Shown: positions 12,224-64,000, counted from the first letter of the stretch. The stretch: 64,000 bases of DNA from Arthrobacter sp. (GCA_031277795.1 JAITLQ010000018.1:124001-188000), one strand, 5' to 3'. Notes: generated from the letters alone by a model not told the origin. Numbers and translations: made by a program.

Positions 12224-12272
12224 CTTCACTCGTGTCATCCACTCACCGATTCGGTGGGCGGAAGCACGGTGA

Positions 12273-12345
12273 AGGGTAGTGGCGCAATTGGTAGCGCAGC
12301 GGTCTCCAAAACCGCAGGTTGCAGGTTCGAGTCCTGTCTGCCCTG
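12273..12345 (+). tRNA. tRNA-Trp (anticodon CCA)
   Basis: The 73-nt cloverleaf begins AGGGTAG and ends CTGCCCT plus a G discriminator; the acceptor stem pairs with one G-T wobble. The anticodon loop is CTCCAAA (anticodon CCA) and the T-arm carries GGTTCGAGTCC. The 3' CCA is not encoded. A single tRNA-Trp directly upstream of secE is typical in this phylum. Confidence 0.97.
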
Positions 12346-12447
12346 CTCTCGAGAGCTTCATCTCGAAACGAAGAACGGCGTGGATCACTCAAGCTCGAAG
12401 AGCCAGTGACCGCGCCGCTTCGACATGACGGACATGGAGGGGCGCAG

Positions 12448-12699: not shown

Positions 12700-12782
12700 T
12701 TCTCCTCGCGGGCCCGGGGGATCCCGGAGCCGGCGAGTAGCAACACCCTCTGAAGTACCGATCACGAAAGCAGGAAGTTCGC

Positions 12783-13562: not shown

Positions 13563-13692
13563 TTTTTTCAGTCTTCGCCCCTCATGACCCGCTTTGTTGT
13601 GGGGGCGCGATTCTGGCCGCCGCGCCACGGCGGCCACACTCCCGGTTCACGCTCCTGTGGGCGGGGAAGAAGCAAGAAGGGAAGGACCATTC
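13563..13692 (+). promoter_or_regulatory. Structured leader of rplK-rplA, possible L1 target
   Basis: The gap between nusG and rplK contains a 9-bp hairpin (arms 13614-13622 and 13628-13636, loop CGCCA), and upstream of it a looser pairing of CGCCCC with GGGGCG. L1 regulates the L11-L1 operon by binding such leaders in several bacteria; that this one does so is inference. Confidence 0.3.
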
Positions 13693-14124
13693 ATGGCCCC
13701 CAAGAAGAAGGTCTCCGGCCTCATCAAGCTGCAGATCCAGGCAGGCGCCGCCAACCCGGCCCCGCCGATCGGCCCCGCGCTCGGCCAGCACGGCGTCAAC
13801 ATCATGGAGTTCTGCAAGGCCTACAACGCGGCGACCGAGTCGCAGCGCGGCAACGTCATCCCGGTGGAGATCACCGTGTACGAGGATCGCTCGTTCACGT
13901 TCATCACCAAGACGCCGCCGGCCGCCGAGCTCATCAAGAAGGCCGCCGGTGTGCCCAAGGGCTCCGGTGTCCCGCACACGCAGAAGGTCGGCTCGCTGAC
14001 CCAGGCGCAGGTGGAGGAGATCGCCACCACCAAGATGGAAGATCTCAACGCCAACGATCTGGCCGCCGCCTCCAAGATCATCGCCGGTACCGCCCGTTCC
14101 ATGGGCATCACCGTCCAGGGCTGA
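13693..14124 (+). CDS. rplK: 50S ribosomal protein L11
   Basis: L11 forms the GTPase-associated centre with 23S rRNA and is needed for stringent-response sensing. The 143-residue product has the proline-rich N-terminal switch [24 protein letters not shown] and the rRNA-binding C-terminal domain with [26 protein letters not shown]. Length and both domains are standard. The ATG at 13693 begins [18 protein letters not shown]; the frame extends upstream without similarity. rplA follows after 121 bp. Confidence 0.97.
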
Positions 14125-14245
14125 AACCCTGAAACCGGTTTCCCCACGCCGTGGGGGAGCCACAACTCGTCGGGTGCACAGGCGCCAGACGGTGGAAGGG
14201 TCGCGCGACCCGCATGACCACGACTGCATAAGGAGACAAACGCAG

Positions 14246-14950
14246 ATGGCAAAGCGCAGCAAAGCATACGAGGCAGCCGCCGCCAAGATCGAGGCCGGCA
14301 AGCTGTACGCCCCGGTCGAGGCGATCGCCCTGGCCCGCGAGACCGGTTCGGCCAAGACCGACTCGACCATCGAGGTGGCCTTCCGCCTCGGCGTCGATCC
14401 CCGTAAGGCCGACCAGATGGTCCGCGGCACGGTGAACCTGCCCAACGGCACCGGCAAGACCGCCCGCGTGGTCGTCTTCGCCAACGGTGACAAGGCCGAG
14501 GCCGCCCGCGAGGCCGGCGCCGACTTCGTCGGTTCGGACGAGCTCATCGAGAAGATCCAGGGTGGCTGGACCGACTTCGACGCCGCCGTGGCGACGCCGG
14601 ACCTCATGGGCAAGGTCGGCCGCCTGGGCAAGATCCTCGGCCCCCGCAACCTGATGCCGAACCCGAAGACCGGCACGGTGACCATGGACGTCGCCAAGGC
14701 CGTCAACGACATCAAGGGTGGCAAGATCGACTTCCGCGTCGACAAGCACTCGAACCTGAACTTCATCATCGGCAAGGCTTCCTTCTCGACCGAGGCTCTG
14801 GCTCAGAACTACGCCGCCGCCCTGGAAGAGGTCCTGCGCCTGAAGCCGTCGGCTTCCAAGGGCCGTTACATCCAGAAGGCCACCATGGCCACCACCTTCG
14901 GCCCGGGCATCGCCCTGGACCCGAACGTGACCCGCGTGGTGTCCGCCTGA
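14246..14950 (+). CDS. rplA: 50S ribosomal protein L1
   Basis: L1 builds the mobile L1 stalk that releases deacylated tRNA, and represses its own operon in many bacteria. The 234-residue product contains the typical [21 protein letters not shown] segment in the second domain and [17 protein letters not shown] near the C-terminus. The ATG at 14246 is preceded by AAGGAGAC. A 13-bp terminator follows, ending the secE-nusG-rplK-rplA stretch. Confidence 0.97.
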
Positions 14951-14976
14951 GACCCCAGCTCCTCGTGAGCAACGCG

Positions 14977-15006
14977 AAGGCCCCGGTGCTCTGCACCGGG
15001 GCCTTT
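14977..15006 (+). terminator. Terminator after rplA
   Basis: Perfect 13-bp arms (14977-14989 and 14993-15005) around TCT, followed by TTTCCC. Confidence 0.88.
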
Positions 15007-15170
15007 CCCGTGCCCGCCGGATGCTCGAGCAGCGCGTCGGCTCCATCCCAACGGAATCCGGAAGAGGGACGAAGTGCTGTCGAGGCGACGGCAACTCGCC
15101 CGTCGAGATTTCGGAAATCGATGGGCCAAAGAATCCCTATCTAGGGAGTTCCTCTCCCGTCATTGCCTGC

Positions 15171-15335
15171 TATGCTGATCTCGAACGTGGTGCCAGGTTG
15201 CATGACAGGGCGACCGGCGCCACGCGGTTTCACCGGTTGCCCCCAAGACCCGGTGAGACCACCGCCGTCGGTCGGTCCCCCCAAGGACCGGCGGCCAGAG
15301 GCCCCCTTCCACCCCCCAATGGGAAGGGGGCCTCT
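15171..15335 (+). ncRNA. Candidate small RNA between rplA and rplJ
   Basis: TATGCT (15171-15176) could serve as a -10 box with a start near 15182. The transcript would end at a perfect 14-bp hairpin (arms 15297-15310 and 15322-15335), giving about 155 nt. Internal pairing such as GGTCC with GGACC is present around 15275-15292. The -35 is poor, and no known RNA family was recognised. The hairpin could instead protect against read-through into rplJ. Confidence 0.3.
15297..15335 (+). terminator. Hairpin with perfect 14-bp stem upstream of rplJ promoter
   Basis: Arms 15297-15310 and 15322-15335 pair perfectly around an 11-nt loop, followed by CCCTGTCTT. It lies 290 bp beyond the rplA terminator, so it ends some other transcript or insulates the rplJ promoter. 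Confidence 0.65.
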
Positions 15336-15378
15336 CCCTGTCTTCGGCCCCCTATGGCGCGGCTCACGCCCGCCCGAT

Positions 15379-15407
15379 TTGGCCAGCCCCTCGTCCGCCT
15401 GTAGTCT
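15379..15407 (+). promoter_or_regulatory. Promoter of rplJ-rplL
   Basis: TTGGCC (15379-15384) and TAGTCT (15402-15407), spaced 17 bp. The start near 15414 gives a leader of about 180 nt. Confidence 0.6.
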
Positions 15408-15412
15408 TGAGC

Positions 15413-15593
15413 GGTACCAAAGACCGTCGGTTGCATCACGCCTGTGATGCTGAAGGTTCCCGCTAGCGGGACGGCCCACGCAGGTAACGAACTTTTCTCG
15501 CCGTTCTCGTAACGGCCGTGACGAGCCCCGTGCCCTGCGCCCGGGGCTCGTTTCGTTTCAGGGGCCAGCCGACCACACCCCGGAAGGAGGGTT
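15413..15593 (+). promoter_or_regulatory. L10-type mRNA leader with attenuator hairpin
   Basis: The leader begins with AAGACCGTCGGTTGC, includes a small GCATCAC/GTGATGC hairpin and the CTAGCGGG stretch, and ends in a 10-bp hairpin (arms 15521-15530 and 15542-15551) followed by TTCGTTT. L10 or the L10-L12 complex binds such leaders and represses rplJL. The assignment rests on position and layout, not on a covariance search. Confidence 0.5.
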
Positions 15594-16166
15594 ATGGCTA
15601 CGTCGCAGAAGGAGGTCTCCGTCGAGGAGATCACCGCCGACTTCAAGGAGTCGTCCGCCGCTGTCCTGACCGAATACCGTGGGCTCACCGTTGCACAGCT
15701 CAAGACTCTCCGTCGTTCGCTTGGTGCTGACACCAAGTACGCGGTTGTCAAGAACACCCTGACGGGTATTGCGGCCAAGGCTGCCGGCATCGACGCGTTC
15801 GATGGCCAGCTCGCCGGCCCCACCGCCATCGCCTTCATCAAGGGCGACGCTGTCGCCGCTGCCAAGGGCCTGACGGACTTCGCCAAGGACAACGACAAGC
15901 TCATCATCAAGGCTGGCTTCTTCGAGGGCAAGGCCATGGATGCAGCGGAGATCGCTGCTCTGGCCGCTCTTGAGTCCCGCGAGTTCCAGCTGGCCCGCGT
16001 GGCCGGCGTGCTGCAGGCTCCGGCTTCCGCCGCCGCCCGCATCATCGATGCGCTGCGTCTGAAGCTCGAGGAGGGTGCCCCGGCCGTCGCCGAGGCCCCC
16101 GCCGCGGAAGCCCCCGCTGCCGAGGAGGCCCCCGCGGCCGCCGAGGAAGCGACCCCCGAGGCCTGA
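15594..16166 (+). CDS. rplJ: 50S ribosomal protein L10
   Basis: L10 anchors L7/L12 dimers to the ribosome as the stalk base. The product has 190 residues; the L10 core (about 5-160) includes YRGLTVAQLKTLRRSL and YAVVKNTL. The final 32 residues are an A/P/E-rich tail (from EEGAPAVAEAP onward) beyond the usual length. The ATG at 15594 follows GGAAGGAGGGTT. rplL follows after 72 bp in the same operon. Confidence 0.96.
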   Translation: MATSQKEVSVEEITADFKESSAAVLTEYRGLTVAQLKTLRRSLGADTKYAVVKNTLTGIAAKAAGIDAFDGQLAGPTAIAFIKGDAVAAAKGLTDFAKDNDKLIIKAGFFEGKAMDAAEIAALAALESREFQLARVAGVLQAPASAAARIIDALRLKLEEGAPAVAEAPAAEAPAAEEAPAAAEEATPEA

Positions 16167-49272: not shown

Positions 49273-51432
49273 ATGAACGAGGTTCCCCCCATGGTGGAGT
49301 CTGCCCCTCGATCCCATGAGGTGCGCCATCTGTGGCGGAAACACCGTGTGGTGATCGTCGAGGGTCCGAGCGGCAGCGGCCGCTCGAGCACGGCGTTTGC
49401 CGCGGTATCAGCTGAGGTGGCCCAGGGCGGCTGTCGCGGGCTGATCATTGAGGGTGCCCAGGGACCGGACATCGATGACCTGCGGTTGTGGATTGCCACG
49501 CGGGTGGCCGTGGCCCGTGCCTCGGGCGGCGCACCGCGGGTCAACTACGCCGTGGTGGATGACCTGCACCTCTTGGACGACGAGGCCTGGGGGCTCGTTG
49601 AGCGACTCTCGCGCGAGAATGACACCTACTGGGTCATGACCGTGGCCTCCGGCACGGCGGAGCGCCGCGTGGCGGCCCTGCTCGGGGCAGGCGCCGGCCA
49701 CCTCAGAGTCAGCACCGTGAGTACTCAGGCCACGAGGGAGATCCTGCGCGAGGTGTGGGGTCACGAACCCACCCCAGGCATGGTGGACTTGGTGTATCAA
49801 CTGTGCGCAGGTCGCCCGGGCTGGATGCACAAGTGGGCCAAGGCCTCGGCCCATGTCCCCGCCGAGGCGAAGCTGGCCGGACGGGGTGAACTCACCACCT
49901 ACGAGTGGCACGTCTTCCAGCGCGCTGCCACGCTGTTGGGGGAGGGCCTCGGGGTCGGGACGGCCTCCCGCGAGGCCATGTTCCGGGTGAGCACCGGCGC
50001 CGAGACCCCGGGCGACGTGCGGCTGCTGACGGACCGCGGCGAGCTCATGGAGGTGGATTACACCACCCGCAGGCTCGTCGCCGTCCCCCTTCTGCGTCGC
50101 TTGGTGGTGCTCAACGCCGAGACATCGCAAGCCGTGGCTGTCCATCCCGAGGACTCCGTGGTGGCCGCGGGCCGCTGGCTCGAGATGTTCATGCCCGATG
50201 GGGCCAGGCGCCGGCTCGAGGGAGTGGCGGGGGCGTCGGCGAGCCTGCTGCGCCTCGAATCCAACGTCCTGCTCGGCGAGAGCCGCGGAGTCCGCGACGA
50301 GCTGAGGGCCTTGGTACGCTCCGGCTTCGCGTTCTCCGAGACCGAGCTGCAACGGTTGCTGGCGCTGGGTCTTGCCGCCGAGGATCGCCAGAGCCTCGAC
50401 GAGCTGCGTCGGCACGAGCATGTCGGCGAGATCCTCGAGGCGATGGACCTGGCCAGGGAGGGGCGGATCGCCGAGGCCGCGCGCCGCGTCGATGTGGGCG
50501 CCGGGCCGGGGACCGAGGCGGGCGCCGCCGGGCTGGCACCGCTGCGACGTGCGTTGGCCGCCTGGTATGCGGCGCTGGGAGACGACACCTTGAACGCGTA
50601 CCGCTTGATGTTCGGTGCCCCGCCCTCCGCGGCCGCGCCGCAGCAGCTCGTCTCGCCACTGTGGGAGGCGCTGCTCGGCGATCTTCATGCCCTCACGTGC
50701 CTGCTGCTGGGCGAGTGGAACCGCGTGGGCATCCACCCCGAGGCCTTTCCCCGGCGCGCCAACACGTGGCTGCGGCACGACAACGGCGCATGGCCCGCCG
50801 TGGCCGCGACCATGGGCGTTGACCTGAATCGCGGGCGGCTCTCCCGCTCCGTGTTCGTGGAGTCGATCCACGGGCTCTCCTGGCTCACCGCCTTTGCGCG
50901 GGTGGTGGCCGACGACGCCGAGCTCACGTTGCTTGCCACCCTGTCCCGGGTGCGGCGCCCCGTGGAGCCGGGGCTGGCTCGCATTCTGAGTGTGTGGCGC
51001 GCGCGCGCCGAACTGCTGCAACGAGGCGCCGTCGTGCGAGGATCTGATCACGAGGAAAAGGCGGCCACGTCCGCCGGATCCAGCTTGGCGAGGGTGCAGT
51101 TGTCCCTGTGGGGACTCGGCGCCTTGACGCCGGGCGAACGTTCCACGGCGCGGGCCACCTTGGCCCGCTTGGGGGGCGTGTATGGATTTGACAGCTGGCT
51201 GTCACTTCCGGAGGAGGTTGGCCCCGCCGCCACGGGGCTCAGCCGGAGAGAAAGGGAGGTGTGCGTGGAACTCGCGCATGGGTACACGGCGGCGGAGACC
51301 GCCCAGCGACTCGGCATTTCCCCGCGCACCGTGGAAAAGCACGCGGCCAACGCCTACAAGAAGCTCGACATCGCCTCCCGCCAGGAACTGGCGGCGGCGC
51401 TTGGAGTGAGCCTCGCTGGGGGAGTCGCGTGA
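49273..51432 (+). CDS. Large LuxR-family (LAL/MalT-like) regulator with Walker A
   Basis: The product has 719 residues. Near the N-terminus is a P-loop-like GPSGSGRSS (31-39), and NYAVVDDLHLLDDEAW (91-106) fits a Walker B with Asp96 and Asp97; together they suggest a STAND-type ATPase sensor like MalT. The middle is helical and resembles no family I can name. The last 64 residues are a LuxR helix-turn-helix: LSRREREVCVELAHGYTAAETAQRLGISPRTVEKHAANAYKKLDI. It starts 60 bp after truA. Its stop overlaps the second regulator by 4 bp (GTGA). It probably controls the downstream surface genes. Confidence 0.88.
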   Translation: MNEVPPMVESAPRSHEVRHLWRKHRVVIVEGPSGSGRSSTAFAAVSAEVAQGGCRGLIIEGAQGPDIDDLRLWIATRVAVARASGGAPRVNYAVVDDLHLLDDEAWGLVERLSRENDTYWVMTVASGTAERRVAALLGAGAGHLRVSTVSTQATREILREVWGHEPTPGMVDLVYQLCAGRPGWMHKWAKASAHVPAEAKLAGRGELTTYEWHVFQRAATLLGEGLGVGTASREAMFRVSTGAETPGDVRLLTDRGELMEVDYTTRRLVAVPLLRRLVVLNAETSQAVAVHPEDSVVAAGRWLEMFMPDGARRRLEGVAGASASLLRLESNVLLGESRGVRDELRALVRSGFAFSETELQRLLALGLAAEDRQSLDELRRHEHVGEILEAMDLAREGRIAEAARRVDVGAGPGTEAGAAGLAPLRRALAAWYAALGDDTLNAYRLMFGAPPSAAAPQQLVSPLWEALLGDLHALTCLLLGEWNRVGIHPEAFPRRANTWLRHDNGAWPAVAATMGVDLNRGRLSRSVFVESIHGLSWLTAFARVVADDAELTLLATLSRVRRPVEPGLARILSVWRARAELLQRGAVVRGSDHEEKAATSAGSSLARVQLSLWGLGALTPGERSTARATLARLGGVYGFDSWLSLPEEVGPAATGLSRREREVCVELAHGYTAAETAQRLGISPRTVEKHAANAYKKLDIASRQELAAALGVSLAGGVA

Positions 51433-53798
51433 GGGAAGGCGGCCTGCTCGCGGCGTGGTCAAGCAACGTCCGCCTGCCCTCCCCCGCGCTCTCCGCCGGA
51501 TGGTGGGGCGTTGACCCCCTCGGCGTCCTGGAGCGGCATTGGATCGGCCGCCTCGCCCCCAAGGGTGTCGTCGTGGACATCGATCACGCCGAGGCGGAGG
51601 CGGTGCTTGGCATTGCAGGCCCAGAGGCGGAACTCGCCCGCCTCCTGACGGATGCGGCGCGCGCCGGGGCCGGGGCGCGGATCGTCGCGCTGCACGCCCA
51701 GCTGGTGGCCCAGCACGGCTTCGTCACGTACTTCACCCGGCTGCCCTCCCGCCTGCGCGGTGCCGTGCGGGGCTGGCTCGTTGCCGCCGCCAGGGCCGGG
51801 GGCGCGCAGGTGATCGCCATCGTCGGCGGCGAGGACGAGATGCCGGAGGACTGGGCCGGGGGAGAGGAGAGGGCCCTCGAGCCGCTGCCACAGCCCATCA
51901 TCGGGGTCGGGGACCTGCTCTCGCTGGCGCCCCGCGAGCTGCTGGACGGCGTCCCCATCCTCGCCGCCGCGGCCTTCGTGTCCTCCTGCGGCGGGCGCCT
52001 CGACGTAGCGGCCCTCGCGCTCGATGCGTGGTCCACCTGGGAGGACGCGCGCGTGGCCCTCGTGAAGGGAACCGCCGGGCAACGCAGCGTCGGCTCGCCG
52101 CTCGACCTCGCCATGGCACGGCTCTTCGATTCGCTCTCGCCCGGGGAGCGGGATCTGGCCGCCGACCTGGCGCGCGCCGTCGGGGCCCACGCGGTGGCCG
52201 GTGCGCAGGTGGACGCCATGGTCAAGCTGGCCGGGCGTGGGCTGGCGCAACCGCTGGGCGGGCGCGGCCGCCCTCGTGTGCGGGCGGCGAGCGAACTGAT
52301 GCGAACCTCGATCGAGGCCCACCTGCTCGAACCGGCCGAGGTGGAGGCAGCCCGCCCCCCGAGCGCGTCGGTGTGGCAGGAGCAGCTGCAGCGGCTCAAC
52401 CACGCGAACGAGGCCATGGACGCCGTGGCCGGGCGGGCCCCGGCCGGGCACCTGGAGCAGACGCGCAGCGCCTGGGGGAGCTCGGCGTCCGCCGACCTGG
52501 TGGTTGCGCAGATCATGGAGCATCATTTCCTGCGTGCCGGCGCGTCCGAGTGCCTGCGACAGGGCAGGGCGCTCTCCCTCCCCGGGCCGCTCTCGCGGGC
52601 CATGCTGGTCCGGGCCAGCCTCGAAAGCGGTGAGATCTACCGCAGTGTCGCCGAGCTCTGCCGCCAGGAACTGGGCCGAACGCCAGCGCATCGCGACGAC
52701 GACCTCGTCCTGGACCTGGCCCCACCCGGCGATCTGCGGGAGCTGATGCGGGCAGGCCTGCGCGCGGGGGAGCGCGCGGATCTGCGCAAGCAGGCCGTGG
52801 CGCTGGGGCGCCTCGTGCGCCTGGCCCAGCGGCCGCCGCAGACGGAGGGGCAGGATGCGTGGGAAGTCATGCGCGCCGCCTTCGAACGGCGTCTCTTCCG
52901 GGTGGTGGCGGGGCAGGGGATGCTCATCGCCTTGGGCCTTGGGGGCTACCTGCCCATGCTTGAGCGCGTGACGGATTCCCTCGTGCGGGACGTGCGGCCG
53001 TGGCACGGGGCGCTGGCCGGGGTGCACGAGCTGGCGCTCGCGGTGGACGAGGCCGGACGCGGCTGGCACCGGGACCTTGACGACCGCTTCCAGCGCACGA
53101 TCAATCACGCCACCGCCTGGCACCACGGCACCGTCGCACGCGCCGCGCGCGTCGTGGCGACGAGCACGTGGGCCGGCGACGGGCGGCTCGGCGAGGATAC
53201 GGACGGCGCGCTGTTCAGGGGGGCACGAGGTTTCCTCTCCACCTGGGTGCGCGGGCTGAGGGGGGACTTCGGCGCGATCCAAGAATTGGCGGCGACCCCC
53301 GCGCCGGGCGCCGACGCCCGAACGCGCAGCGGCGTCCTGTGGGCCAGGGCCGCGCTCCAGCTGGTGGATCCCGTCGAAGCGGCCGGCCAGCTGGCCGATG
53401 CGCGGGAGGATCTCTTGGTCAGTTGGCTGGCCAACGTGGCGCTCATCCTGGACCCGACGCGCCAGGACCCCACCACGGCCAAACTCCTGACGCAGGCCGG
53501 TCGCGGCCGGGCTGGCGCGGCCCGCAATCTCGACGCACTCCGCGGCCTCGCGGAACCGAGCAGGCTGACGCCGCGCGAGCTGGACGTGGAGCGCGCGCGC
53601 CTGGCCGGCGAAGACATCGCAGCGACGGCAAGCAAGCTCGGGATCAGCGAACGAACCGTTGAAACCCACCGCTCGGCGGTGAAGGCGAAGGCCGAGGTGC
53701 TCGTGAAGGCGGGGTGGCAGCCCGCGGACGCGAGGCGCTGGACCATGGAACTACAGGACCTTTTGAATCCAAACGCCGTTTTAAATCATGATTCGTGA
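51429..53798 (+). CDS. Second large LuxR-family regulator, no Walker A
   Basis: The product has 789 residues starting at GTG 51429, overlapping the first regulator's stop. The C-terminal helix-turn-helix (713 to about 762) reads LTPRELDVERARLAGEDIAATASKLGISERTVETHRSAVKAKAEVLVKAG, a good LuxR domain. The N-terminal half has LARLLTDAARAGAGARIVALHAQL but no GxxGxGK[ST] P-loop, unlike its partner. The rest is Ala/Arg-rich helix, possibly TPR-like repeats. Two coupled regulators, one with and one without an ATP site, suggest a heteromeric switch; that is inference. It ends in an AT-richer tail before the operator region. Confidence 0.85.
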   Translation: MREGGLLAAWSSNVRLPSPALSAGWWGVDPLGVLERHWIGRLAPKGVVVDIDHAEAEAVLGIAGPEAELARLLTDAARAGAGARIVALHAQLVAQHGFVTYFTRLPSRLRGAVRGWLVAAARAGGAQVIAIVGGEDEMPEDWAGGEERALEPLPQPIIGVGDLLSLAPRELLDGVPILAAAAFVSSCGGRLDVAALALDAWSTWEDARVALVKGTAGQRSVGSPLDLAMARLFDSLSPGERDLAADLARAVGAHAVAGAQVDAMVKLAGRGLAQPLGGRGRPRVRAASELMRTSIEAHLLEPAEVEAARPPSASVWQEQLQRLNHANEAMDAVAGRAPAGHLEQTRSAWGSSASADLVVAQIMEHHFLRAGASECLRQGRALSLPGPLSRAMLVRASLESGEIYRSVAELCRQELGRTPAHRDDDLVLDLAPPGDLRELMRAGLRAGERADLRKQAVALGRLVRLAQRPPQTEGQDAWEVMRAAFERRLFRVVAGQGMLIALGLGGYLPMLERVTDSLVRDVRPWHGALAGVHELALAVDEAGRGWHRDLDDRFQRTINHATAWHHGTVARAARVVATSTWAGDGRLGEDTDGALFRGARGFLSTWVRGLRGDFGAIQELAATPAPGADARTRSGVLWARAALQLVDPVEAAGQLADAREDLLVSWLANVALILDPTRQDPTTAKLLTQAGRGRAGAARNLDALRGLAEPSRLTPRELDVERARLAGEDIAATASKLGISERTVETHRSAVKAKAEVLVKAGWQPADARRWTMELQDLLNPNAVLNHDS

Positions 53799-53959
53799 AT
53801 GCCCAATCGAATACGCCTACGTAGTCCACTGAAAAGACCAGTGCTGACTACGTAGTAGTCCGTTCAATCCAGCTCCTAGCGTTATCGACGTCATCGAAGG
53901 AGCTCCCATGCTTCAGCCTTTCGGGGTGCTCCTCAGCGTCATTTGCGAAGGAGCCACTC
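53799..53959 (+). promoter_or_regulatory. Regulatory region of surface genes with two CTACGTAGT boxes
   Basis: This 161-bp gap is visibly AT-richer than its surroundings. CTACGTAGT occurs at 53817-53825 and 53848-53856, 31 bp apart (about three helical turns). The second is part of the dyad GACTAC-GTA-GTAGTC (53846-53860). The two together can fold as a hairpin (outer 10 bp, 2-nt bulge, inner CACTG/CAGTG). A TAGCGT box (53877-53882) could be the -10, which would place the second box near -37, where LuxR activators often bind. Confidence 0.5.
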
Positions 53960-56887
53960 GTGCGCGTCAGAAGAACTTTGCGACCGGGAACGGCATGGGC
54001 CGCGGCCGCCGCCCTGATCGTGGCGCCGCTCGTGGTGGCCCCGATCGTCTCCGCGGCCGAGCCGGGTACGGACGACGCGCCCGCGGCGGTGGCCGCAGCG
54101 GCGCCCTCCGCCCAGGAGCAGGCCGCACCCGTTGCCGCCGATGAGGCGCAGCCCGCCGCCGCGGCGCCGGCACCCGCAGCCCAGGAGGCCCCGGCCGCCA
54201 ATGAGCCGGCGGAGGCATCGCAGCCGGCCACGCAGGAGGCTCCGGCCACGCGGGAGGCTCCGGCCTCCGACACCGCTGCTGTCGCACCCGCGTCCCCCGC
54301 GAGCGACGAGCCGAGCACCCCCGCCGCCGAATCGAGCAGCTCGTCCGCGGCGGCGCCAGCTTCCGCGAAGGCCGGCGCGCAGCGCGCCGCGGCTCCCGCG
54401 AGCGAAGCCGCCCCGAACGAGGAAGCCGCGAGCGAGCCGGTTGCGGCCGCCGCAGCGATCACCCCGCTCGCCGCCGGGGACCGGGGCGCCGTCACGGTGC
54501 GTGTGCTGCTCGATCGCAACGGGTCGAGCACCGAGGCGGCCACGGGCTACGCGGGGGCCACCGTGGAGCTCGTCGCCAAGACGCGTTCACGTGCATCCAC
54601 CCATTGGTACGACTTCTGGAGCAACTGGAGCGCCTCGAGTGTGCGGGCGACGTGCGTCTCGACGTCGACCGGTCTGTGCTCGCTCGACGTCGCCCCGGTG
54701 ACCGACCTTTTTCAGTACTCAGAGGTGAGCGTCAACCTCGTCTCCACCGGTGCCGGCGTCACGCCGCTGAGCCAGGTGGGCACCGGTTCATCCGGTGGCT
54801 CGCTCACCACCGTCGACGTGATCAACCTCGACGGCGACAAGATGCCGAAGGCCAACAAGACGGCCAAGGCCGAGGACATCACGAGCGACTCGACGAACAA
54901 CCGCCGCGCCGTGTTCAGTGTGGTGCGCAACAACCCGAGCCTGAGCGGCAAATGCGGCCTCAAGCTCGGCCTGCTCATGGACGTCTCGGGCTCCATTGCC
55001 GACTCCACGGACGGTGTGAAGAACCTCAAGAATGCCGCGAAGGCCTTCGTCTCCGCGCTCCAGGGCACCCCCTCACAGGTCCTCGTCCGCAACTTTGCCG
55101 ACGGTTCCCCGGCCGTTGAGAGCGCCGAGGTGGGAACGCTCACCTCCGTCGCGACCCAGGGCGGCGTCACCACGCTCAACAACGCCGTCGACCAGCTCAA
55201 CAACAGCAACGTCACGGGCGCTACCAACTGGGATGCGGGCCTCTACCGCATGCGCAACGCCGGCCTCGACGCCGTGGTCATCGTGACCGACGGCGTGCCG
55301 ACCTACCGCATGAGGGGCAACTCAACGAGCGGTCCGGGCAACTCGGCCACCGCCGACGTGGTCCAGCACGCCAATTGGTCGGCCAACGCCGTCAAGGCCG
55401 GCTCACAGAGCATCATCGCGGTGGGCGTGGGCAGCGACTTTGCCAAACAGGGCGCGGACCTGAACCTCAAGCTGCTGGCCGCGGGCCAGGTCTACAAGGC
55501 CAGCGACCTGGGCGCGCTCAAGAGCACGTTGACCTCCCTGGCCCAGCAGAACTGCAAGGGCACGGTCAACATCGTCAAGCGAGTCACCGCCAGCGGGACC
55601 ACCACGGAAGCCGCTTCCACCCCCGGGGTCGGCTTCACCTTCAAGCAGAACGACGCAGAGGCCAAGGCAACGGACAACAACGGCGCGGTGAGCTTCGACG
55701 TGACGAGCAGCGCGGCCCAGAAGTTCACTGAGGTGGCGCAGCCCGACTACGAGATCGTGCCGCAGAACGGCAAGCCAGCCTCGTGCACGGCGGATGGTGC
55801 CTCCGTCACGGTGAACGCCGTGGCCGGGGATGCAAACTCCTTCACGGTGGCCGGGTCCACCACCAAGACCATCACCTGCGTTGTCTACAACAAGCCCAAG
55901 CCCAAGGACACCTCGCTCACGATCAAGCACGCGTGGGTCGACGAGGACGGGGACCCGCTCAGCGACGCCGAGGTCGGCCAGGTCATTGCCGCCCCCACCG
56001 ACGGGGCGCCGAGCCTGAAGGTCAACGCCGGTTCCACCTGGAACAACGCGCCCGCCTACCTCGCCACGGTGACCACGACGACCTCCGGCGGCTCCACCAA
56101 GCTGCAGGCAGGGGACAGCGTGACGGTGGGCGTGCGGACGGGGCCCGGCGCGGTGAAGAACGGACTCAGCTGCACCGCGTCCCTCGTGTCCGTCAGCCGC
56201 GGTTCCGACACGGCGTCGAGCGCGCTCACGGCCACCTTGGCGGAAACCGCCGCGGGCAATGTGTTCGTGGTGACCCATCGCCTCGCCTGCGAGAGCACGT
56301 TGACGCTCAACAAGCAGGTCAGGGAGATGAGCGGAGACGGGACGTCTCCCACCGCATGGACGTTGCACGCAGATGGCGCGGTCTTCGAGCAGGGAGAGGC
56401 GACGAAGGTCGTGGCCGGCCGGGGCTACGAGCTCACGGAGAGCGGCGGCCCGGCCAAGGTGAAGGGCAAGGCGTGGGAGCAGACCGCACTCACGTGTGAC
56501 AAGGCGGGGGCGCTGAACGGCTCCACGGTGACCGTCTCCCGCGGTCAACGCGTGACCTGCACCTTCGTGAACGCTTCGCTGCAGATCGAGGTCAGCAAGC
56601 GAGCCTGGTTGGGGACCGCGATCCCCGGTGCGCTTACCGGCGAGCTGCCCAGCGGCTCCGCCGTGGCGGACGGCTCCACGATCTCGTGGTTGTTCACGAT
56701 CAAGAACACCGGCTACCTCGACTACCGCGTGAGCTCCGTGAGCGATGACTACATCACCTCGCAGATCTCCTGCGCGCCGAGCGTGACGGGCACGTTCAAG
56801 CCCTTTGGCTCATTGACCCAGGCGGAGCGCACCATCGCCTCCGGTTCGTCGATGTATTGCAAGGCCACCGGGACCCTCGCCTTCTAG
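53960..56887 (+). CDS. Secreted VWA-domain adhesin
   Basis: The product has 975 residues. A basic N-terminus and hydrophobic core (TAWAAAAALIVAPLVVAPIVSAAE) form a Sec signal peptide of about 33 residues. Residues 34-165 are a disordered A/P/E/S stalk. A von Willebrand factor A domain (about 332-525) has the metal site DVSGS (341-345), Thr422 (ATNWD) and Asp444 (VTDG). Next comes a SpaA/transthyretin-like module (NIVKRVTASGTTTE...GVGFTFKQND), then two more Ig-like repeats with VTCTFVN-type endings. No LPXTG or C-terminal membrane helix exists. The start is GTG at 53960 after GAAGGAGCCACTC. Confidence 0.85.
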   Translation: MRVRRTLRPGTAWAAAAALIVAPLVVAPIVSAAEPGTDDAPAAVAAAAPSAQEQAAPVAADEAQPAAAAPAPAAQEAPAANEPAEASQPATQEAPATREAPASDTAAVAPASPASDEPSTPAAESSSSSAAAPASAKAGAQRAAAPASEAAPNEEAASEPVAAAAAITPLAAGDRGAVTVRVLLDRNGSSTEAATGYAGATVELVAKTRSRASTHWYDFWSNWSASSVRATCVSTSTGLCSLDVAPVTDLFQYSEVSVNLVSTGAGVTPLSQVGTGSSGGSLTTVDVINLDGDKMPKANKTAKAEDITSDSTNNRRAVFSVVRNNPSLSGKCGLKLGLLMDVSGSIADSTDGVKNLKNAAKAFVSALQGTPSQVLVRNFADGSPAVESAEVGTLTSVATQGGVTTLNNAVDQLNNSNVTGATNWDAGLYRMRNAGLDAVVIVTDGVPTYRMRGNSTSGPGNSATADVVQHANWSANAVKAGSQSIIAVGVGSDFAKQGADLNLKLLAAGQVYKASDLGALKSTLTSLAQQNCKGTVNIVKRVTASGTTTEAASTPGVGFTFKQNDAEAKATDNNGAVSFDVTSSAAQKFTEVAQPDYEIVPQNGKPASCTADGASVTVNAVAGDANSFTVAGSTTKTITCVVYNKPKPKDTSLTIKHAWVDEDGDPLSDAEVGQVIAAPTDGAPSLKVNAGSTWNNAPAYLATVTTTTSGGSTKLQAGDSVTVGVRTGPGAVKNGLSCTASLVSVSRGSDTASSALTATLAETAAGNVFVVTHRLACESTLTLNKQVREMSGDGTSPTAWTLHADGAVFEQGEATKVVAGRGYELTESGGPAKVKGKAWEQTALTCDKAGALNGSTVTVSRGQRVTCTFVNASLQIEVSKRAWLGTAIPGALTGELPSGSAVADGSTISWLFTIKNTGYLDYRVSSVSDDYITSQISCAPSVTGTFKPFGSLTQAERTIASGSSMYCKATGTLAF

Positions 56888-56999
56888 CGAGGTCCCGGAG
56901 GCGGCGACGGCACTCGCCGCGCCGCACCGACTCCCACCCCCCGGGCACTAGCCCATCCCTACCCGTGGCAGCGCCCGGATTCCCACTGAGGAGAACACC

Positions 57000-57539
57000 A
57001 TGAAGAAGAACACCAAGGTTGTTGTGGCGGGAGCCCTCGTCCTGGGCCTCGCGGCCGGCGGCGGCACCTTTGCCCTCTGGTCGAGCGATGCCACCGTCAA
57101 CGGCGGCGGCATCAACACCGGCGAACTCAACGTCAAGGCCGTGGAAGGCTCGCTCGCCTACGACGACCTGAACACCGCTGCAGCCAACGACTGGAATGCG
57201 GCGACGGACAAGATGGTCCCGAGCGACAAGGTGGGTGCCAAGCAGCAGTTCACCCTCACGCTTGTGGGCAAGAACCTCAAGGCCAAGGTCAACCTGACCG
57301 ACGGCACGGCCAGCCCCTCCGGTACCGAGGTGGCCACCGGCGTGAGCGGCACTATCACCAAGGTCGGCGGTACGGCGGAGGCGCTCACCGCCGACTTCCC
57401 GGTCGACCCGAGCTACGACGGCGCGACGATCGAGGTGACCACGACCTTCGACTTCCCCGAGGTCGCCACCTCCACCATGAACTCCGCCGTGTCCGTCACC
57501 GGCGGCGGCGTGGCCCTCGAGCAGTACACCACCCCGTGA
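57000..57539 (+). CDS. Exported protein with SipW-type signal peptide (TasA/CalY-like logic), 179 aa
   Basis: The N-terminus MKKNTKVVVAGALVLGLAAG then GGTFALWSSDATVNGGGINTGELNV is the alternate, SipW-dependent signal type (GGTFALW-S/T-D followed by a beta-rich mature part). The rest (residues 45-179) is a beta-rich, low-cysteine domain of T/V/G/K character, like the actinobacterial alternate-signal exported families. The start follows GAGGAGAACACC. It is probably the abundant structural component, because strong hairpins follow it. The fibre role is inferred from the TasA analogy. Confidence 0.82.
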   Translation: MKKNTKVVVAGALVLGLAAGGGTFALWSSDATVNGGGINTGELNVKAVEGSLAYDDLNTAAANDWNAATDKMVPSDKVGAKQQFTLTLVGKNLKAKVNLTDGTASPSGTEVATGVSGTITKVGGTAEALTADFPVDPSYDGATIEVTTTFDFPEVATSTMNSAVSVTGGGVALEQYTTP

Positions 57540-57540
57540 T

Positions 57541-57619
57541 GCGGTGGCGCCGGCCCCTCGAGGACCGGCGCCACCGCCCCTCCCTTCGTCGGCGCCCGCG
57601 TTCTGCGGCGCGGGCGCCG
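57541..57619 (+). terminator. Tandem hairpins between the two SipW-signal genes
   Basis: First hairpin: perfect 13-bp arms 57541-57553 and 57565-57577. Second: 11-bp arms 57590-57600 and 57609-57619. Neither has a U-tract. They could attenuate the downstream genes or protect the upstream mRNA, setting the ratio of the exported proteins. Confidence 0.6.
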
Positions 57620-57652
57620 AAACCACCAGCATCACCCCCCAAAGGAGTCACC

Positions 57653-58402
57653 GTGAAGACGTCACGAGTCGTGAGGACCACCGCCATCTTGGCGGGCGCG
57701 ACGGCGCTCGGCATCGGCGTGGGCAGCGCCGCCTTCGCGCTCTGGAACGACTCGGAGTCATTCGCCTCCGAGGTGAACACCGGCTCCCTCAGCCTGAGCA
57801 TCAGCGATGCGGACGGGGTGGGGGGCAAAGCCGCCTGGGCCGCGCCCAACGGCGGGCCCATCTCCTACTCGCTGCCGAACGGCGGGCAGGGCAGGGCGGT
57901 CAACCCGCTCTCCCTCCTGAGCTCCACCACGCCGGTGGCCGTCCCCTTCACCGTGCAGAGCAAGGCCTACGGGCGGTGGGGCGTCGACTACTCCCTCAGT
58001 GCCCTGCACGTCTCCGGTGATCGAACGCTGATCGACCTGGCGACCCTCAAGGTCTTCGAGGGCGTGTCGGCCGCAGAGTGCAAGCCAACCCTGAGCGGCA
58101 CCGCCGCCTATTCGGGGTCGGTGGCTGGGTTCACCGGCCTGAGCGATCGCACCGGGGTGAAGGGCATCAAGTCCGCCGAGCGCACGGACACCGACGAGTA
58201 CTGCCTGCTCTTGTCCTTGCCGTCCGCGCAGGGCGAACACGAGAACACCGTCACCGTCGAGGGCGGTTCCACCTCGGGAAAGACGGACCTGGACTCCTCC
58301 GCCTCGTGGAGCGCGGTCGAGGGCGAGGTCCCGAGCGACGCACCCGGGCGTTCTGCCACGCTCTCCCTGACCTTGACCGCCACCCGCACGGGCGGGGCCT
58401 GA
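57653..58402 (+). CDS. Second exported protein with SipW-type signal peptide, 249 aa
   Basis: The N-terminus MKTSRVVRTTAILAGATALG then IGVGSAAFALWNDSESFASEVNTGSLSLSIS has the same FALW-N-D-S signature as its neighbour. The mature part is beta-rich with two cysteines (about positions 141 and 184) that could form a disulfide, and a T/S-rich C-terminus without an anchor. The start is GTG at 57653 after AAAGGAGTCACC. It lies 5 bp before sipW. A minor fibre or assembly subunit is a guess. Confidence 0.8.
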   Translation: MKTSRVVRTTAILAGATALGIGVGSAAFALWNDSESFASEVNTGSLSLSISDADGVGGKAAWAAPNGGPISYSLPNGGQGRAVNPLSLLSSTTPVAVPFTVQSKAYGRWGVDYSLSALHVSGDRTLIDLATLKVFEGVSAAECKPTLSGTAAYSGSVAGFTGLSDRTGVKGIKSAERTDTDEYCLLLSLPSAQGEHENTVTVEGGSTSGKTDLDSSASWSAVEGEVPSDAPGRSATLSLTLTATRTGGA

Positions 58403-58407
58403 GCGGC

Positions 58408-59022
58408 ATGCGTGTCTTGTTGCGCTGGCTGGGGCGGTTGCTGACCGCGCTGCTCCTCGCCGTCTTCGGGCTCGTGGTGCTGGTCCCCGCCGTGACGGGC
58501 TCGACCACGCTCACGGTACTCACCGGCTCGATGGAGCCCACCATCAAGCCGGGCGCACTCATCATGGTCAAGCCGGTTCAGAGCAACGAGATCGAGGTCG
58601 GCTCGATCATCACCTATCGCCCCGCCTCGGACGAGGACATCCTCATCACCCACCGCGTGGTGCGCCAAGAAAGCGGGGCGAACGGCACTCAGTGGGTCAC
58701 CCGCGGCGACGCCAACGGGGCCGACGACGCGCCCATCGTCTACGCACAGGTGCGCGGCAAGGTGATCTATTCCCTTCCCTACCTCGGCTACGTGCGGCAG
58801 GCACTCACGAGCCAGGGCCCGTGGCTCCTGGTGGGCGTCGCCCTGATCATGGTGCTGGCTCTGCTCTGGCCGCTGCTCACCAAGCGGCGCCGGACCGGAA
58901 CCCGCGGCGCCCACGCGCCGGACCCCGGGCCCTCGAACGAGACCCAGCCGCCCGCCGTCGTCGGCGTGGCCCCGCAGCGAAACGACCCCGTCACAGCAAC
59001 CCCGAGAGGTGCATCATCATGA
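58408..59022 (+). CDS. sipW: SipW-like (ER-type) signal peptidase I
   Basis: The product has 204 residues. An N-terminal helix (LLTALLLAVFGLVVLVPAV) leads to catalytic Ser41 in LTGSMEPTIKPGALIMVKP. His82 in ITHRVV replaces the lysine general base of usual bacterial signal peptidases, and Asp101 and Asp107 lie in RGDANGADD: this is the S26B (ER/SipW) type. A second hydrophobic segment (PWLLVGVALIMVLALLWPLL) and a basic tail end the protein. It should mature its two upstream neighbours. The stop overlaps the next gene (ATGA). Confidence 0.92.
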   Translation: MRVLLRWLGRLLTALLLAVFGLVVLVPAVTGSTTLTVLTGSMEPTIKPGALIMVKPVQSNEIEVGSIITYRPASDEDILITHRVVRQESGANGTQWVTRGDANGADDAPIVYAQVRGKVIYSLPYLGYVRQALTSQGPWLLVGVALIMVLALLWPLLTKRRRTGTRGAHAPDPGPSNETQPPAVVGVAPQRNDPVTATPRGASS

Positions 59023-59957
59023 AGCGATCGTTGATCAAGGCGCTGGCCGGCACGGCCCTCGCCGGCTTGATCGGCGTCGCCGCGGCCGCGCCGGCCACGG
59101 CCGACACGACCCAGGTGTGGGAAGCGCCCCTCGTGAGCTGGGACGGAACGGATGGCACGTGGGAGCAGCATCCCCTCGAGCCGATGTTCTCCACCGACGC
59201 CATGGTCCCGGGCGACAGCGTCCAGGCCGGCGTCTACATCAAGAACGCCGGCGCGCGCACCGCGCACCTGAAGGTGGTGCTGCGCGACGTCAGGATCCCG
59301 GCGGAGAAACAGGCCGTCCTCGACGAGGTCGCCGCCCTGCCCTCCGGCGTCGAGCCCAGCGATGCCCAGCTGGCGGTCACGCAGCTCTACGACGAGGTGC
59401 ACCTGCGGACCCAGCTCGGCGGCACCTCCGTGGACGACACGATCCCCGCGCTCGCCGCGCGGACCTCGGACATCGTGCTCTTCGACGCCGACGTGATCGT
59501 GGGGGAGACGGTGAAGGTCTCCGCCTGGTACGACTGGATCTACGCCAACGCCCTCAGCGGCTTCAGCCATGCTGGCAACGGAGTGCCGGGACCGTGGATG
59601 GACTTCACCATCGTGGCGAACATGTCCTATGTGGACGAGCCGGTGACCACCTCCGCGGCGCCCTCCACGACCGCGCTGCCGACCCAGAGCACGGCGACGA
59701 CACCCCCCAGCGGCACCGTCGCGCCGCCGACCTCGACGAGCGTCGAGCCCGTCAGGACGACGGCAGCCCCGACGCAGGTGACGGCTGGAGCAGCTGGTCC
59801 GGCGGATCCGGCCGGCCCTGCGGCGCCCGGCGGAAGCTTGCCGTCCACCGGCCTCGGAACCCCGGTCGTTGCCATGGGCCTCGGCGCCCTCGTGCTGCTC
59901 GCCCTCGGCCTGCCGCTCGTGATGCGCCGTCGCAAGGACAAGCGCACCCACGCCTGA
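59019..59957 (+). CDS. LPXTG cell-wall protein of the SipW locus
   Basis: The product has 312 residues. A standard signal peptide (KRSLIKALAGTALAGLIGVAAAAPATA) is followed by an about 180-residue beta-rich domain (DTTQVWEAPLVSWDG...VPGDSVQAGVYIKNAGARTAHLKVV), a T/S/P stalk (about 210-272), then LPSTG at 274-278, a hydrophobic helix and a RRRKDKR tail. These are a complete sortase signal. It may anchor the secreted fibre or adhesin to the wall. It is translationally coupled to sipW. No sortase gene is in the window. Confidence 0.88.
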   Translation: MKRSLIKALAGTALAGLIGVAAAAPATADTTQVWEAPLVSWDGTDGTWEQHPLEPMFSTDAMVPGDSVQAGVYIKNAGARTAHLKVVLRDVRIPAEKQAVLDEVAALPSGVEPSDAQLAVTQLYDEVHLRTQLGGTSVDDTIPALAARTSDIVLFDADVIVGETVKVSAWYDWIYANALSGFSHAGNGVPGPWMDFTIVANMSYVDEPVTTSAAPSTTALPTQSTATTPPSGTVAPPTSTSVEPVRTTAAPTQVTAGAAGPADPAGPAAPGGSLPSTGLGTPVVAMGLGALVLLALGLPLVMRRRKDKRTHA

Positions 59958-60059: not shown

Positions 60060-60099
60060 CGCGGGCCATACCTCGAATGGGAGCGAGGTATGGCCCGCG
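60060..60099 (+). terminator. Terminator of the surface locus
   Basis: Perfect 16-bp arms (60060-60075 and 60084-60099) with an 8-nt loop, followed by TCTCGTC. It lies about 100 bp after the LPXTG gene. Confidence 0.82.
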
Positions 60100-61565: not shown

Positions 61566-63338
61566 TCAGGCGGGAGCGACGTCCCACGCCAGGCCCAGCT
61601 CGCCGTCGCCCAGGGCGCGGGAGAGATGAAGCCACGGCACGGTGGCGCCGGGCCGGGCCAGGAGCGCCTCGCCGGCCGGGCGGCCGTCGGCCACCCACCG
61701 GGGTGAGAGCACGACGGCGTGCGGCCCGTCCCAGCGCGCCGTCGCCGAGACGGTGATGAGGTCCAGCGGCCCGGCCGTGGCGCTGGCCGGCGCCAGGTTC
61801 GCCGCGAGGTCCTCGCGCGAGGCGACGATCTGCGCGGCGGTGGCCCCCTTCTCCTTGCCCTCGCTGGCCGGCGCCGTGATGGCCTCGCCGCTCAGGAAGA
61901 GGTGCTCCCCGCGCAGCTCCCACTTCTCCGGCGGAGCGGGCGTGATGGAGCGCGGCACCACGCGGGTGTGAAGGGTTCCCGCCGCGGTGCCGGTGCCCGA
62001 GGTGCCGCCGGGCGGGGGTACGACCTCGGCGGTGCGCTCGGCGGCCCACGTGGTGGACGAGAGCGCCGAAGTGGCGGTGCCGGAGCCGGCGTCGCCGCCG
62101 GCCACGGGCCTCACCTCGGCGGAGCGCTCGGCGGCCCACGCGTCGGACGCGAGCGGGCCCAGGGCAGCGATCGCCGAAGCAGCCGAGCCGGCCACGGGCT
62201 GGGAACCGGCCGGGCGTCCGGCCGCTGCCTCCAGCTCGTCGCTTCCCACGCGCGCGAACACCATCTCCTCGTAGGCGCCGCGCTCCATGAACACCCCCAC
62301 GCCGCCGTCCGGCAGCGCCACGAGCGTCGAGTAGCCGGAGGCACCCGGGCACAGCCGCACGGCGCCGCCCCAGGTCACCTCGCCGCCGCGCCCGGCCCGG
62401 CCCACGGTCAGCGCGGTGTCGCAGCGCAGCTGCGGGTGGCGGTTGTGCGAGACCACCACGAGGCCCTCGGGCAGCGCCAGCACGCCGCCGTTGTCGGAGG
62501 GATCGGGCAGCTCGCGCACAGGCGCCGGCGCAGCAAAGCTCTCGCCGCCGTCCGCCGAGACAGCCCAGAGCCGATGGGGCGTGGCCCGCGAACAGGACAC
62601 CACGCTCCCGTCCGGCAGCTCGGCGAGCGAATGCTCGTTGCTGTGCACGCCGTCGGCGGTGGGGGAGAAGACCTCGCCCAGCCGCCACGTGGCGCCGTGG
62701 TCGTCGCTCATGGCCACGGCCGAGGCGATGACGCCGGGGGAGCCGTCCGCTGGATCCGTCATGACCACGAAGGGCTGCAGGAGCCGGCCGGCCCTGGGCC
62801 CGTTGCGCAGCACCAGCCCGGAGCCGGAGGCGGGAAAGAGCGAGCGGATGCCCGGGCGATTGAGCTGCGACGTCAGCCGCCGGTGTTCCCACGTGCCGCC
62901 CTCGTCGAGGGAGACGCTCAGCTCGCAGTGCTGCGTCCGCTCCAGCCCGGCCTCCGATTCGAAGAAGCCCCAGCGCGTGGTGCTCACGTGCCAGCAGAGG
63001 ATCGCCCCCGTGGCCGGGTCCTGCAGGAGCGAGGCGTCGCCGAAGCCCTCCAGGCCGGTGCCGGTGCGCAGCACCTCCCAGTCCTCCCACGTGGCCCCCT
63101 CGTCGGTGCTGCGTCGCACCACGAGGTCGATGGGGGAGGGCAGATCGTCCAACAACGGCCGGGCGTCGCACACGGCCACGAGCGTTCCGGCCTGCGTGCG
63201 CAGCAGCGCCGGGATCCTGAACTGGCGGTAGCCGAGCTCCCCGCGGCGGGCGAGGACGCGGGCCATCCGGCCGCCGGCCTCGGAGCGCCCGGGGCTCGCC
63301 GCGGCGGGGGAATCCGCGGGCGAAGACACCGCGCTCAT
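61566..63338 (-). CDS. Exo-alpha-sialidase (GH33)
   Basis: The enzyme releases terminal sialic acids. The 590-residue product has the FRIP motif (YRQFRIPALLRTQAG, about 36-50), four Asp-box-like turns (RSTDEGATW, SLDEGGTW, SDDHGATW, SADGGESF), the nucleophile-type tyrosine in GASGYSTLVALPDG and the nearby glutamate in MERGAYEEMVFAR. No signal peptide is visible, so it is probably cytoplasmic unless a nonclassical route exists. Between about 375 and 440 an insert contains two similar WAAER[ST]AEV units. The ATG at 63338 overlaps the nanE stop (ATGA); a longer upstream frame is spurious. Confidence 0.88.
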   Translation of the reverse strand: MSAVSSPADSPAAASPGRSEAGGRMARVLARRGELGYRQFRIPALLRTQAGTLVAVCDARPLLDDLPSPIDLVVRRSTDEGATWEDWEVLRTGTGLEGFGDASLLQDPATGAILCWHVSTTRWGFFESEAGLERTQHCELSVSLDEGGTWEHRRLTSQLNRPGIRSLFPASGSGLVLRNGPRAGRLLQPFVVMTDPADGSPGVIASAVAMSDDHGATWRLGEVFSPTADGVHSNEHSLAELPDGSVVSCSRATPHRLWAVSADGGESFAAPAPVRELPDPSDNGGVLALPEGLVVVSHNRHPQLRCDTALTVGRAGRGGEVTWGGAVRLCPGASGYSTLVALPDGGVGVFMERGAYEEMVFARVGSDELEAAAGRPAGSQPVAGSAASAIAALGPLASDAWAAERSAEVRPVAGGDAGSGTATSALSSTTWAAERTAEVVPPPGGTSGTGTAAGTLHTRVVPRSITPAPPEKWELRGEHLFLSGEAITAPASEGKEKGATAAQIVASREDLAANLAPASATAGPLDLITVSATARWDGPHAVVLSPRWVADGRPAGEALLARPGATVPWLHLSRALGDGELGLAWDVAPA

Positions 63339-64000
63339 CGGCGCAGCTCGGCGTTGAACCACGAGGTGATGGAGGACGGGTGCGTGATCGCTGTGCCGAC
63401 GACCACGGCGAAGGCCCCGGCCTCGCGCGCGGCGCGCGCCTGCGCGGGGGTGTGGATGCGGCCCTCGGCGATGAGCGGCTTGCCCGTGTCGGCGGCGGCG
63501 ATCGCGGCGAGGAGCTCCAGGTCGGGGCCCTGGGTCTTCTCGCGCTCGCCCGTGTACCCGGCCAGGGTGGTGCCGATGAGGTCGGCCCCAGCGTCGACCG
63601 CGGCGAGGGCATCGTCGAGCGAACCGCAATCGGCCATGACGAGCGCGCCGCTGCCGGAGTGCACCCCGGCGATGGTCTGGGCCAGGCTCAGGCCGTCCGG
63701 GCGCTCGCGGCGCGTGCCGTCCAGCGCCACGATGTGGGCGCCCGCCTGGGCCACGGCGAGGGCGTGGTGCAAGGTGGGGGTGATGAACACGCCGTCGTGC
63801 CCGTCCTTGAACAGGCCGATCACCGGCACCTCGACGGCGCTGCGCGTGAACTGCACGTCAGCGAGGCCCTGCACGCGCACGGCCACGGCGCCGCCGACCA
63901 CGGCGGCGGCGGCGACCTGCGCCATGGTGCGTGGATCGCGCATGGACTCGCCCGGGTAGGCCTGGGCCGAAACGATGAGGCCGCCCTCCAGGGCGGCGAG
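63335..64000 (-). CDS. nanE: N-acetylmannosamine-6-phosphate 2-epimerase, partial (N-terminus beyond window)
   Basis: NanE converts ManNAc-6-P to GlcNAc-6-P in sialic-acid catabolism. The visible 221 residues begin LAALEGGLIVSAQAYPGES and continue through VPVIGLFKDGHDGVFITPTL (catalytic Lys region), IVALDGTRRERPDG, MADCGSLDDALAAVDAGADLIGTTLAGYT and IAEGRIHTPAQARAAREAGAFAVVVGTAITHP. This is the TIM-barrel NanE pattern. The true start is outside the window. Its stop overlaps the sialidase ATG, so both are translated together. Confidence 0.94.
   Translation of the reverse strand, partial: LAALEGGLIVSAQAYPGESMRDPRTMAQVAAAAVVGGAVAVRVQGLADVQFTRSAVEVPVIGLFKDGHDGVFITPTLHHALAVAQAGAHIVALDGTRRERPDGLSLAQTIAGVHSGSGALVMADCGSLDDALAAVDAGADLIGTTLAGYTGEREKTQGPDLELLAAIAAADTGKPLIAEGRIHTPAQARAAREAGAFAVVVGTAITHPSSITSWFNAELRR

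Follow-up and report, generated by a model that had tools for sequence, protein, structure and literature searches.

What does the run of genes between truA and rplM encode in the window, a stretch of 64,000 nucleotides analysed as a whole, and could it build a surface fibre under its own control? A preliminary description had proposed seven consecutive plus-strand genes here, forming a SipW-type surface or matrix locus with two coupled LuxR regulators. The seven genes at positions 49273 to 59957 are present as proposed: all seven ORFs were called, have coding statistics typical of genuine genes and are conserved in further species. The gene order is truA, LuxA, LuxB, VWA, SigW1, SigW2, S26B peptidase, LPXTG protein and rplM, and the features of the locus are as follows.

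49273-51432, plus strand: LuxA, 719-aa regulator with a C-terminal GerE HTH
51429-53798, plus strand: LuxB, 789-aa regulator with a C-terminal GerE HTH
53817-53855, no strand: CTACGTAG palindrome pair, candidate LuxA/LuxB operator
53960-56887, plus strand: VWA protein, 975 aa, recognized by its MIDAS motif and its orthologues
53950-55949, plus strand: exchanged VWA head block, delimited by DNA identity to G. valiniphilus
57000-57539, plus strand: SigW1, SipW-signal exported protein (TIGR04089), proposed main fibre subunit
57653-58402, plus strand: SigW2, second SipW-signal protein (AAFALW), from family alignment A2
58408-59022, plus strand: S26B (SipW/archaeal-type) signal peptidase, from TIGR02228 and alignment A4
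59019-59957, plus strand: LPSTG wall-anchored protein, from TIGR01167, alignment A3, structure model and fold search
60060-60099, plus strand: perfect 16-bp hairpin 3' of the LPXTG gene, from MFE, shuffles and conservation

Do these genes form one programme, as had been concluded from their tight packing? The overlaps behind that claim are real: LuxA and LuxB share GTGA at 51429-51432, and the peptidase and LPXTG genes share ATGA at 59019-59022. The packing is, however, uneven, as a gap of 161 bp with a conserved palindrome pair inside it separates LuxB from VWA. Because of this gap, the LuxR genes and the genes from VWA to LPXTG are more likely to be two transcription units than one. A sigma-70 promoter scan gave no match in the LuxB-VWA gap, and an Rfam search found no RNA family in the locus. 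The VWA leader (53890-53970) is strongly conserved, and AAGGAGC occurs in it twice: one copy precedes the GTG of VWA, the other an ATG at 53908 from which no conserved frame runs. Two candidate elements were rejected here: the leader as a structured RNA (z-score of -0.5) and a small upstream ORF from 53908, which is interrupted by a stop in one carrier. The hairpin at 60060-60099 (MFE z-score of -4.0; 0 occurrences in 100 shuffles) has the same sequence in the three genomes that carry the locus and is missing in a fourth genome of the genus, G001. It probably ends the transcription unit after the LPXTG gene and shields rplM. The hairpin has no clear U-run.

We then asked where the locus is found. 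The window's genome (G000) is placed in Galactobacter, a genus of the family Micrococcaceae. The sole match of the VWA protein in the genome collection was Galactobacter valiniphilus (G003; contig NZ_QQXK01000003.1, L012), in which the gene order between truA and rplM is identical. In G002, the genes from truA through VWA are present up to the contig end, and the contig with rplM has the same post-LPXTG hairpin. The carriers are these three Galactobacter genomes (the window's own, G002 and G003); G001 lacks the locus, and its truA and rplM are 335 bp apart with no gene between them, which amounts to an empty site. Comparison of the interval across relatives had been suggested as a check; it bears out an insertion between truA and rplM, and it supports the gain or retention of the SipW-type surface locus as a unit at this place. 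Other genera have other contents here: the interval is short in G019 and G016, is filled by Tad/Flp-type pilus genes in G020 (L054) and G022 (L056), and holds a two-component-like gene set in G011. The truA-rplM interval is therefore a recurrent place for cargo. A 993-aa LuxR-type gene lies immediately before rplM in G022 (L056). The whole locus as a mobile element was tried and rejected: no tRNA genes and no GC shift were found at the locus, and the VWA protein was absent from the phage and plasmid records searched. On the minus strand beyond rplM-rpsI (window 61566-64000; L012 17412-22872), a sialidase-like gene is followed by apparent sialic-acid catabolism genes and ABC transporter ATPases.

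Are the proteins of the locus what they had been taken for? The assignments of the two LuxR regulators, the S26B peptidase and the LPXTG protein stand, each with a family match over its curated cut-off. The peptidase scored 89.9 bits against TIGR02228 (cut-off, 51.85) and 73.8 bits, below the cut-off of 190, against the Bacillus SipW equivalog NF046067. Its Ser41 and His82 are invariant in 11 sequences (alignment A4), and we take them to be the Ser-His catalytic pair (instead of Ser-Lys), assigning the roles from what is known of S26B. The C terminus of the LPXTG protein reads LPSTG...RRRKDKRTHA and scored 16.5 bits against TIGR01167 (cut-off, 15.9) and 16.8 bits against PF00746, which is under the cut-off of 20. 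The genome encodes sortases at other places (three matches in G000), and all carriers have them; a look based on motifs only revealed no sortase gene either in the locus or among those orthologous operons that were examined. Of the two proteins described as having SipW-type signals, SigW1 (GGGTFALW) is a family member by both TIGR04089 (84.5 bits versus a cut-off of 60, over model positions 1 to 178 of 179) and TIGR04088 (19.7 bits versus 19). For SigW2 the signal holds, but no family was matched over its cut-off (TIGR04089, 12.6 bits versus 60). A29-L30-W31 and G44 are invariant in the SigW2 family (alignment A2), and its signal and N terminus match the SigW1 profile with 94% probability; beyond the signal, SigW2 has no detectable kinship and no relatives of known fold.

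Is SigW1 related to TasA, the fibre subunit of Bacillus subtilis? The identity of the TasA query sequence was confirmed through its PDB matches. The match of the SigW1 profile to TasA (92% probability; E value of 7e-7) covers the signal as well as the N-terminal strand and the PGD motif. Once the signal peptide was removed, the score was 22.3, and the highest of 50 shuffles reached 19.6; this is suggestive at best, and the profile signal therefore comes mostly from the signal peptide. SigW1 itself scored 12.1 bits against PF12389 (camelysin/TasA), below the cut-off of 22.5, and this family had no match anywhere in the genome. Among the 25 members of the SigW1 family, 6 matched PF12389 (best E value, 1.7e-5) and 2 matched the TasA family NF046066. 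Across the same 25 sequences (alignment A1), Trp27 never varies and Pro74 hardly does; in the register of the profile alignment they fall on F29 and P62 of TasA. F29 is part of the TasA donor strand (PMC9674648), and P62 belongs to a proline box that is conserved at the interface between protomers (PMC10151520). Part of this pattern is also found in the LPXTG protein, whose motif PGD(x)9NxG has P-G-D and N-x-G at the TasA spacing (alignment A3).

Modelling for a TasA-like jelly roll, the second check suggested, gave a weak result. The SigW1 model, built from a two-row alignment, failed, with a mean pLDDT of 37. The ectodomain of the LPXTG protein was modelled with a pLDDT of 71 and matched TasA (5of2) with a Z of 7.3 and an rmsd of 4.0 over 142 of 177 residues, and no other listed match had so long an alignment; unrelated beta-sandwiches, however, matched it with a Z of up to 7.6 (SIDT2 ectodomains, 115 residues). 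PDB sequence searches with SigW1, the LPXTG protein and the VWA protein returned no meaningful match. Taken together, the motif register and the weak profile and fold matches are suggestive of kinship to TasA.

The VWA protein consists of a signal sequence, an Ala/Pro-rich stretch, the VWA domain, Spa-like repeats and a C-terminal beta domain. Its description as a VWA adhesin agrees with a MIDAS motif DxSxS (D341-S343-S345), with distal T422 and TDG at positions 443 to 445, and D341, S343 and T422 are invariant in the eight orthologues aligned; the domain itself falls below the Pfam cut-off (PF13519, 19.2 versus 27 bits). Neither this protein nor any of the eight linked orthologues aligned has an LPXTG sorting signal.

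What was least expected in this locus is its exchanged adhesin head. Over positions 53960 to 55949, the VWA DNA is identical to that of G. valiniphilus at 1963 of 1984 sites (98.9%), a block that spans about the first 660 codons. Its flanks are 53 to 75% identical; upstream, the identity is 66 to 74% as far as the conserved leader, and downstream it is 50 to 70%. The remaining genes of the window are mostly at 72 to 93%, and apart from the head, segments at 98% or more fall within ribosomal, elongation-factor and RNA-polymerase genes. Against both the window and G. valiniphilus, the G002 head is only 57 to 71% identical. Could such likeness reflect constraint? The 658 aligned head codons differ by 16 amino-acid changes and 3 synonymous changes, and the likeness thus points to recent recombination and not to constraint. 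The dS of the whole VWA gene is 0.21 compared to about 0.9 next door. These data indicate that the VWA head was recently exchanged between species by recombination; the count of amino-acid changes is too small for a claim of positive selection. Both borders of the exchange lie in short stretches conserved in the three genomes, the signal-peptide region and an LTIKHAW linker. No other carrier of this head allele was found among the family genomes sampled.

What controls the locus? LuxA and LuxB both match the GerE family PF00196 (51.5 and 31.2 bits, respectively; cut-off, 23.5), and beyond GerE neither has an over-cut-off match among Pfam and NCBIfam profiles. The N terminus of LuxA contains a P-loop-like GPSGSGRSS and a sub-threshold nSTAND match; in LuxB, a Pfam search found no N-terminal nucleotide-binding domain of the STAND type. 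Of 59 relatives, only G002 and G003 had full-length LuxB, and of 297 genomes of the order only the window's own did; in those 297, full-length LuxA was confined to Galactobacter, with two short weak matches elsewhere. Both genes are under purifying selection, as measured against G. valiniphilus (dN/dS of 0.19 for LuxA, at 75% identity, and 0.29 for LuxB). Between LuxB and VWA, the CTACGTAG sites start at 53817 and 53848, 31 bp or about three helical turns apart. The expected number of single sites in the window is 0.05, and two were observed. The sites and their spacing are identical in the three carrier species while the surrounding gap is variable; each carrier genome has a single such pair, and G001 has none. 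We infer that the CTACGTAG pair is a candidate operator, to which LuxA or LuxB may bind.

Is this set of genes peculiar to Galactobacter? The preliminary description knew of no actinobacterial system with exactly this set; that the set is a one-off is not supported. TIGR04089 was matched in 78 of 197 family genomes and in 57 of 297 order genomes, and cassettes without a VWA gene are common in Micrococcaceae: those inspected lack VWA and large LuxR genes and combine SigW1 and the peptidase, often with a second SipW-signal protein and often with an LPXTG-like one. In the order, 39 of the 297 genomes have relatives of VWA; most of these relatives are unlinked adhesins, and many carry LPXTG. The VWA gene adjoins a TIGR04089 gene in eight of these genomes (our own included; four genera in three families), and the VWA-first operon with the same parts is found in seven further genomes of other families. 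In L120, L122, L134 and L136 the order is VWA, SigW1, peptidase, SigW1-like, SigW2-like and LPXTG-type (in L120, up to the end of the stretch); L121 follows L122 up to SigW2-like among the rows listed, and no LPXTG gene was seen in the stretch read of L133. The structural genes thus form an operon that recurs, and since it does so elsewhere without LuxA and LuxB, these regulators are a Galactobacter addition. What remains of the claim that the exact set is undescribed in actinobacteria is that the LuxR genes, the exact seven-gene combination and the CTACGTAG pair are Galactobacter-specific as far as sampled; a literature search covering mainly open-access papers found no actinobacterial description of such a SipW system. 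A second, different SipW cassette is present in the window's genome (L087, G000:C13:48000-67500, 11405-15627), consisting of a SigW1-type protein, two further proteins, an LPXTG-like protein and an S26B peptidase, and a cassette of this kind is also present in G001 (L070). Directly upstream of the VWA-SipW operon, L120 (5227-11157) and L121 (11185-16686) encode a second VWA protein of 1800 to 2000 aa with LPXTG.

The reading to which we give somewhat better than an even chance is that the locus is a regulated, wall-anchored surface-fibre island bearing a VWA adhesin. The original proposal of a wall-linked fibre or matrix under its own control is favoured by the SipW-type locus, the adjacent regulators, the anchored member and the genomic sortases, but its TasA jelly roll is weakly supported. 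How might such an island work? LuxA and LuxB, translationally coupled, would bind the twin CTACGTAG palindromes and activate the VWA-LPXTG operon. SigW1 and SigW2 would be exported via Sec and cut by the S26B peptidase after an FA|LW-type site, placed by the TasA register, and this cleavage would free an N-terminal strand starting with Leu-Trp. The freed strand could fill in the beta-sandwich of the following subunit, so that SigW1, alone or together with SigW2, would form a donor-strand fibre of the TasA type. The LPSTG protein, with its proline-box register, conventional signal sequence and sorting signal, may be a base that sortase anchors and that receives the first strand, and the VWA protein, which has no anchor of its own, may be carried on the fibre as an adhesin. 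Exchange of its head between species is what one would expect of a part that meets a variable target. More tentatively, and with the chances rather against it, the locus could represent an undescribed actinobacterial class of wall-anchored, SipW-processed donor-strand fibres with a VWA adhesin whose head is a cassette swapped via its signal-peptide and LTIKHAW anchors.

Can the same data be explained without a SipW-dependent fibre? The SipW-signal proteins could be soluble or cell-bound secreted proteins (a camelysin-like protease, matrix-binding or competition proteins), with the VWA and LPXTG proteins as separate, co-controlled adhesins. The SigW1 model yielded no fibre fold, SigW2 lacks relatives of known fold, and camelysin, the name-giver of the PF12389 family that some SigW1 relatives match, is described as a metallopeptidase. 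We nevertheless consider this unlikely, given the donor-strand Trp and proline-box Pro in TasA register across 25 sequences and the TasA proline-box spacing that recurs in the LPXTG partner; furthermore, SipW substrates in Bacillus and Clostridium polymerise (PMC9674648, PMC7395162). A sortase-type pilus or wall layer, in which the VWA and LPXTG proteins are sortase-linked and the SipW-signal proteins are accessory, would fit the tip-pilin-like combination of VWA and Spa-like repeats, the LPSTG signal and the several sortases of the genome. It appears very unlikely to us, as the locus has a single protein with a sorting signal, the VWA protein has none in any of the eight linked orthologues aligned, and the motif-based look saw no sortase gene in the locus or its examined counterparts.

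Do LuxA and LuxB control the genes downstream of them at all? They may be unrelated passengers of a hypervariable truA-rplM interval, as would suit the quite different cargo in other genera and the orthologous VWA-SipW operons that do without them. Against this, the three carriers all have both genes together with the operon and the fourth genome lacks genes and operon alike, both genes are under purifying selection, and the sole palindrome pair of each carrier genome lies between LuxB and VWA. We therefore regard mere passengers as quite unlikely.

Work on SipW-dependent fibres has so far concerned Bacillus and Clostridium, and archaea have related fibres. In the present locus, SipW export logic is combined with a VWA adhesin and anchoring by sortase, and no description was found for this group. 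The roles of fibre, anchor and adhesin are testable in natural strains, given G001 without the locus, the second SipW cassette and the recent head exchange. How does the locus compare with known systems? Like tapA-sipW-tasA of B. subtilis, it unites a dedicated S26B peptidase and its substrates in one operon, with SipW-type signals, Trp27 and Pro74 at the positions of TasA F29 and P62, and a partner, itself not a subunit, for which a role in initiating or anchoring the fibre is proposed. In contrast to that operon, it adds a VWA protein, replaces TapA with a sortase-anchored partner and has large LuxR regulators instead of SinR, and SigW1 stays below the PF12389 cut-off. The sipW-bsaABCRSD operon of C. 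perfringens, which yields SipW-dependent extracellular filaments, likewise has its own regulators, in that case a two-component system; in the available portion of the source, no VWA adhesin or LPXTG protein is seen, and its authors judged a sortase requirement unlikely (PMC7395162). An operon-borne regulator is thus not new in kind. With the actinobacterial TIGR04089 cassettes (alternate-type signal peptide proteins), the locus shares SigW1 membership by curated cut-off and the usual neighbours, namely a second SipW-signal protein, an S26B peptidase and often an LPXTG-like protein, whereas the Micrococcaceae ones are usually without VWA and LuxR and lie at other genome places. Closest in content are the VWA-SigW-SipW-SigW-SigW2-LPXTG operons (L120, L122, L133, L134 and L136), which have homologues of the five structural genes with an anchorless VWA first but differ in lacking LuxA and LuxB and in having three SipW-signal proteins with the peptidase after the first. 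The fibre-and-adhesin set thus recurs in other actinobacterial families without a described function, while the control genes and the swapped head are, as far as sampled, peculiar to Galactobacter.
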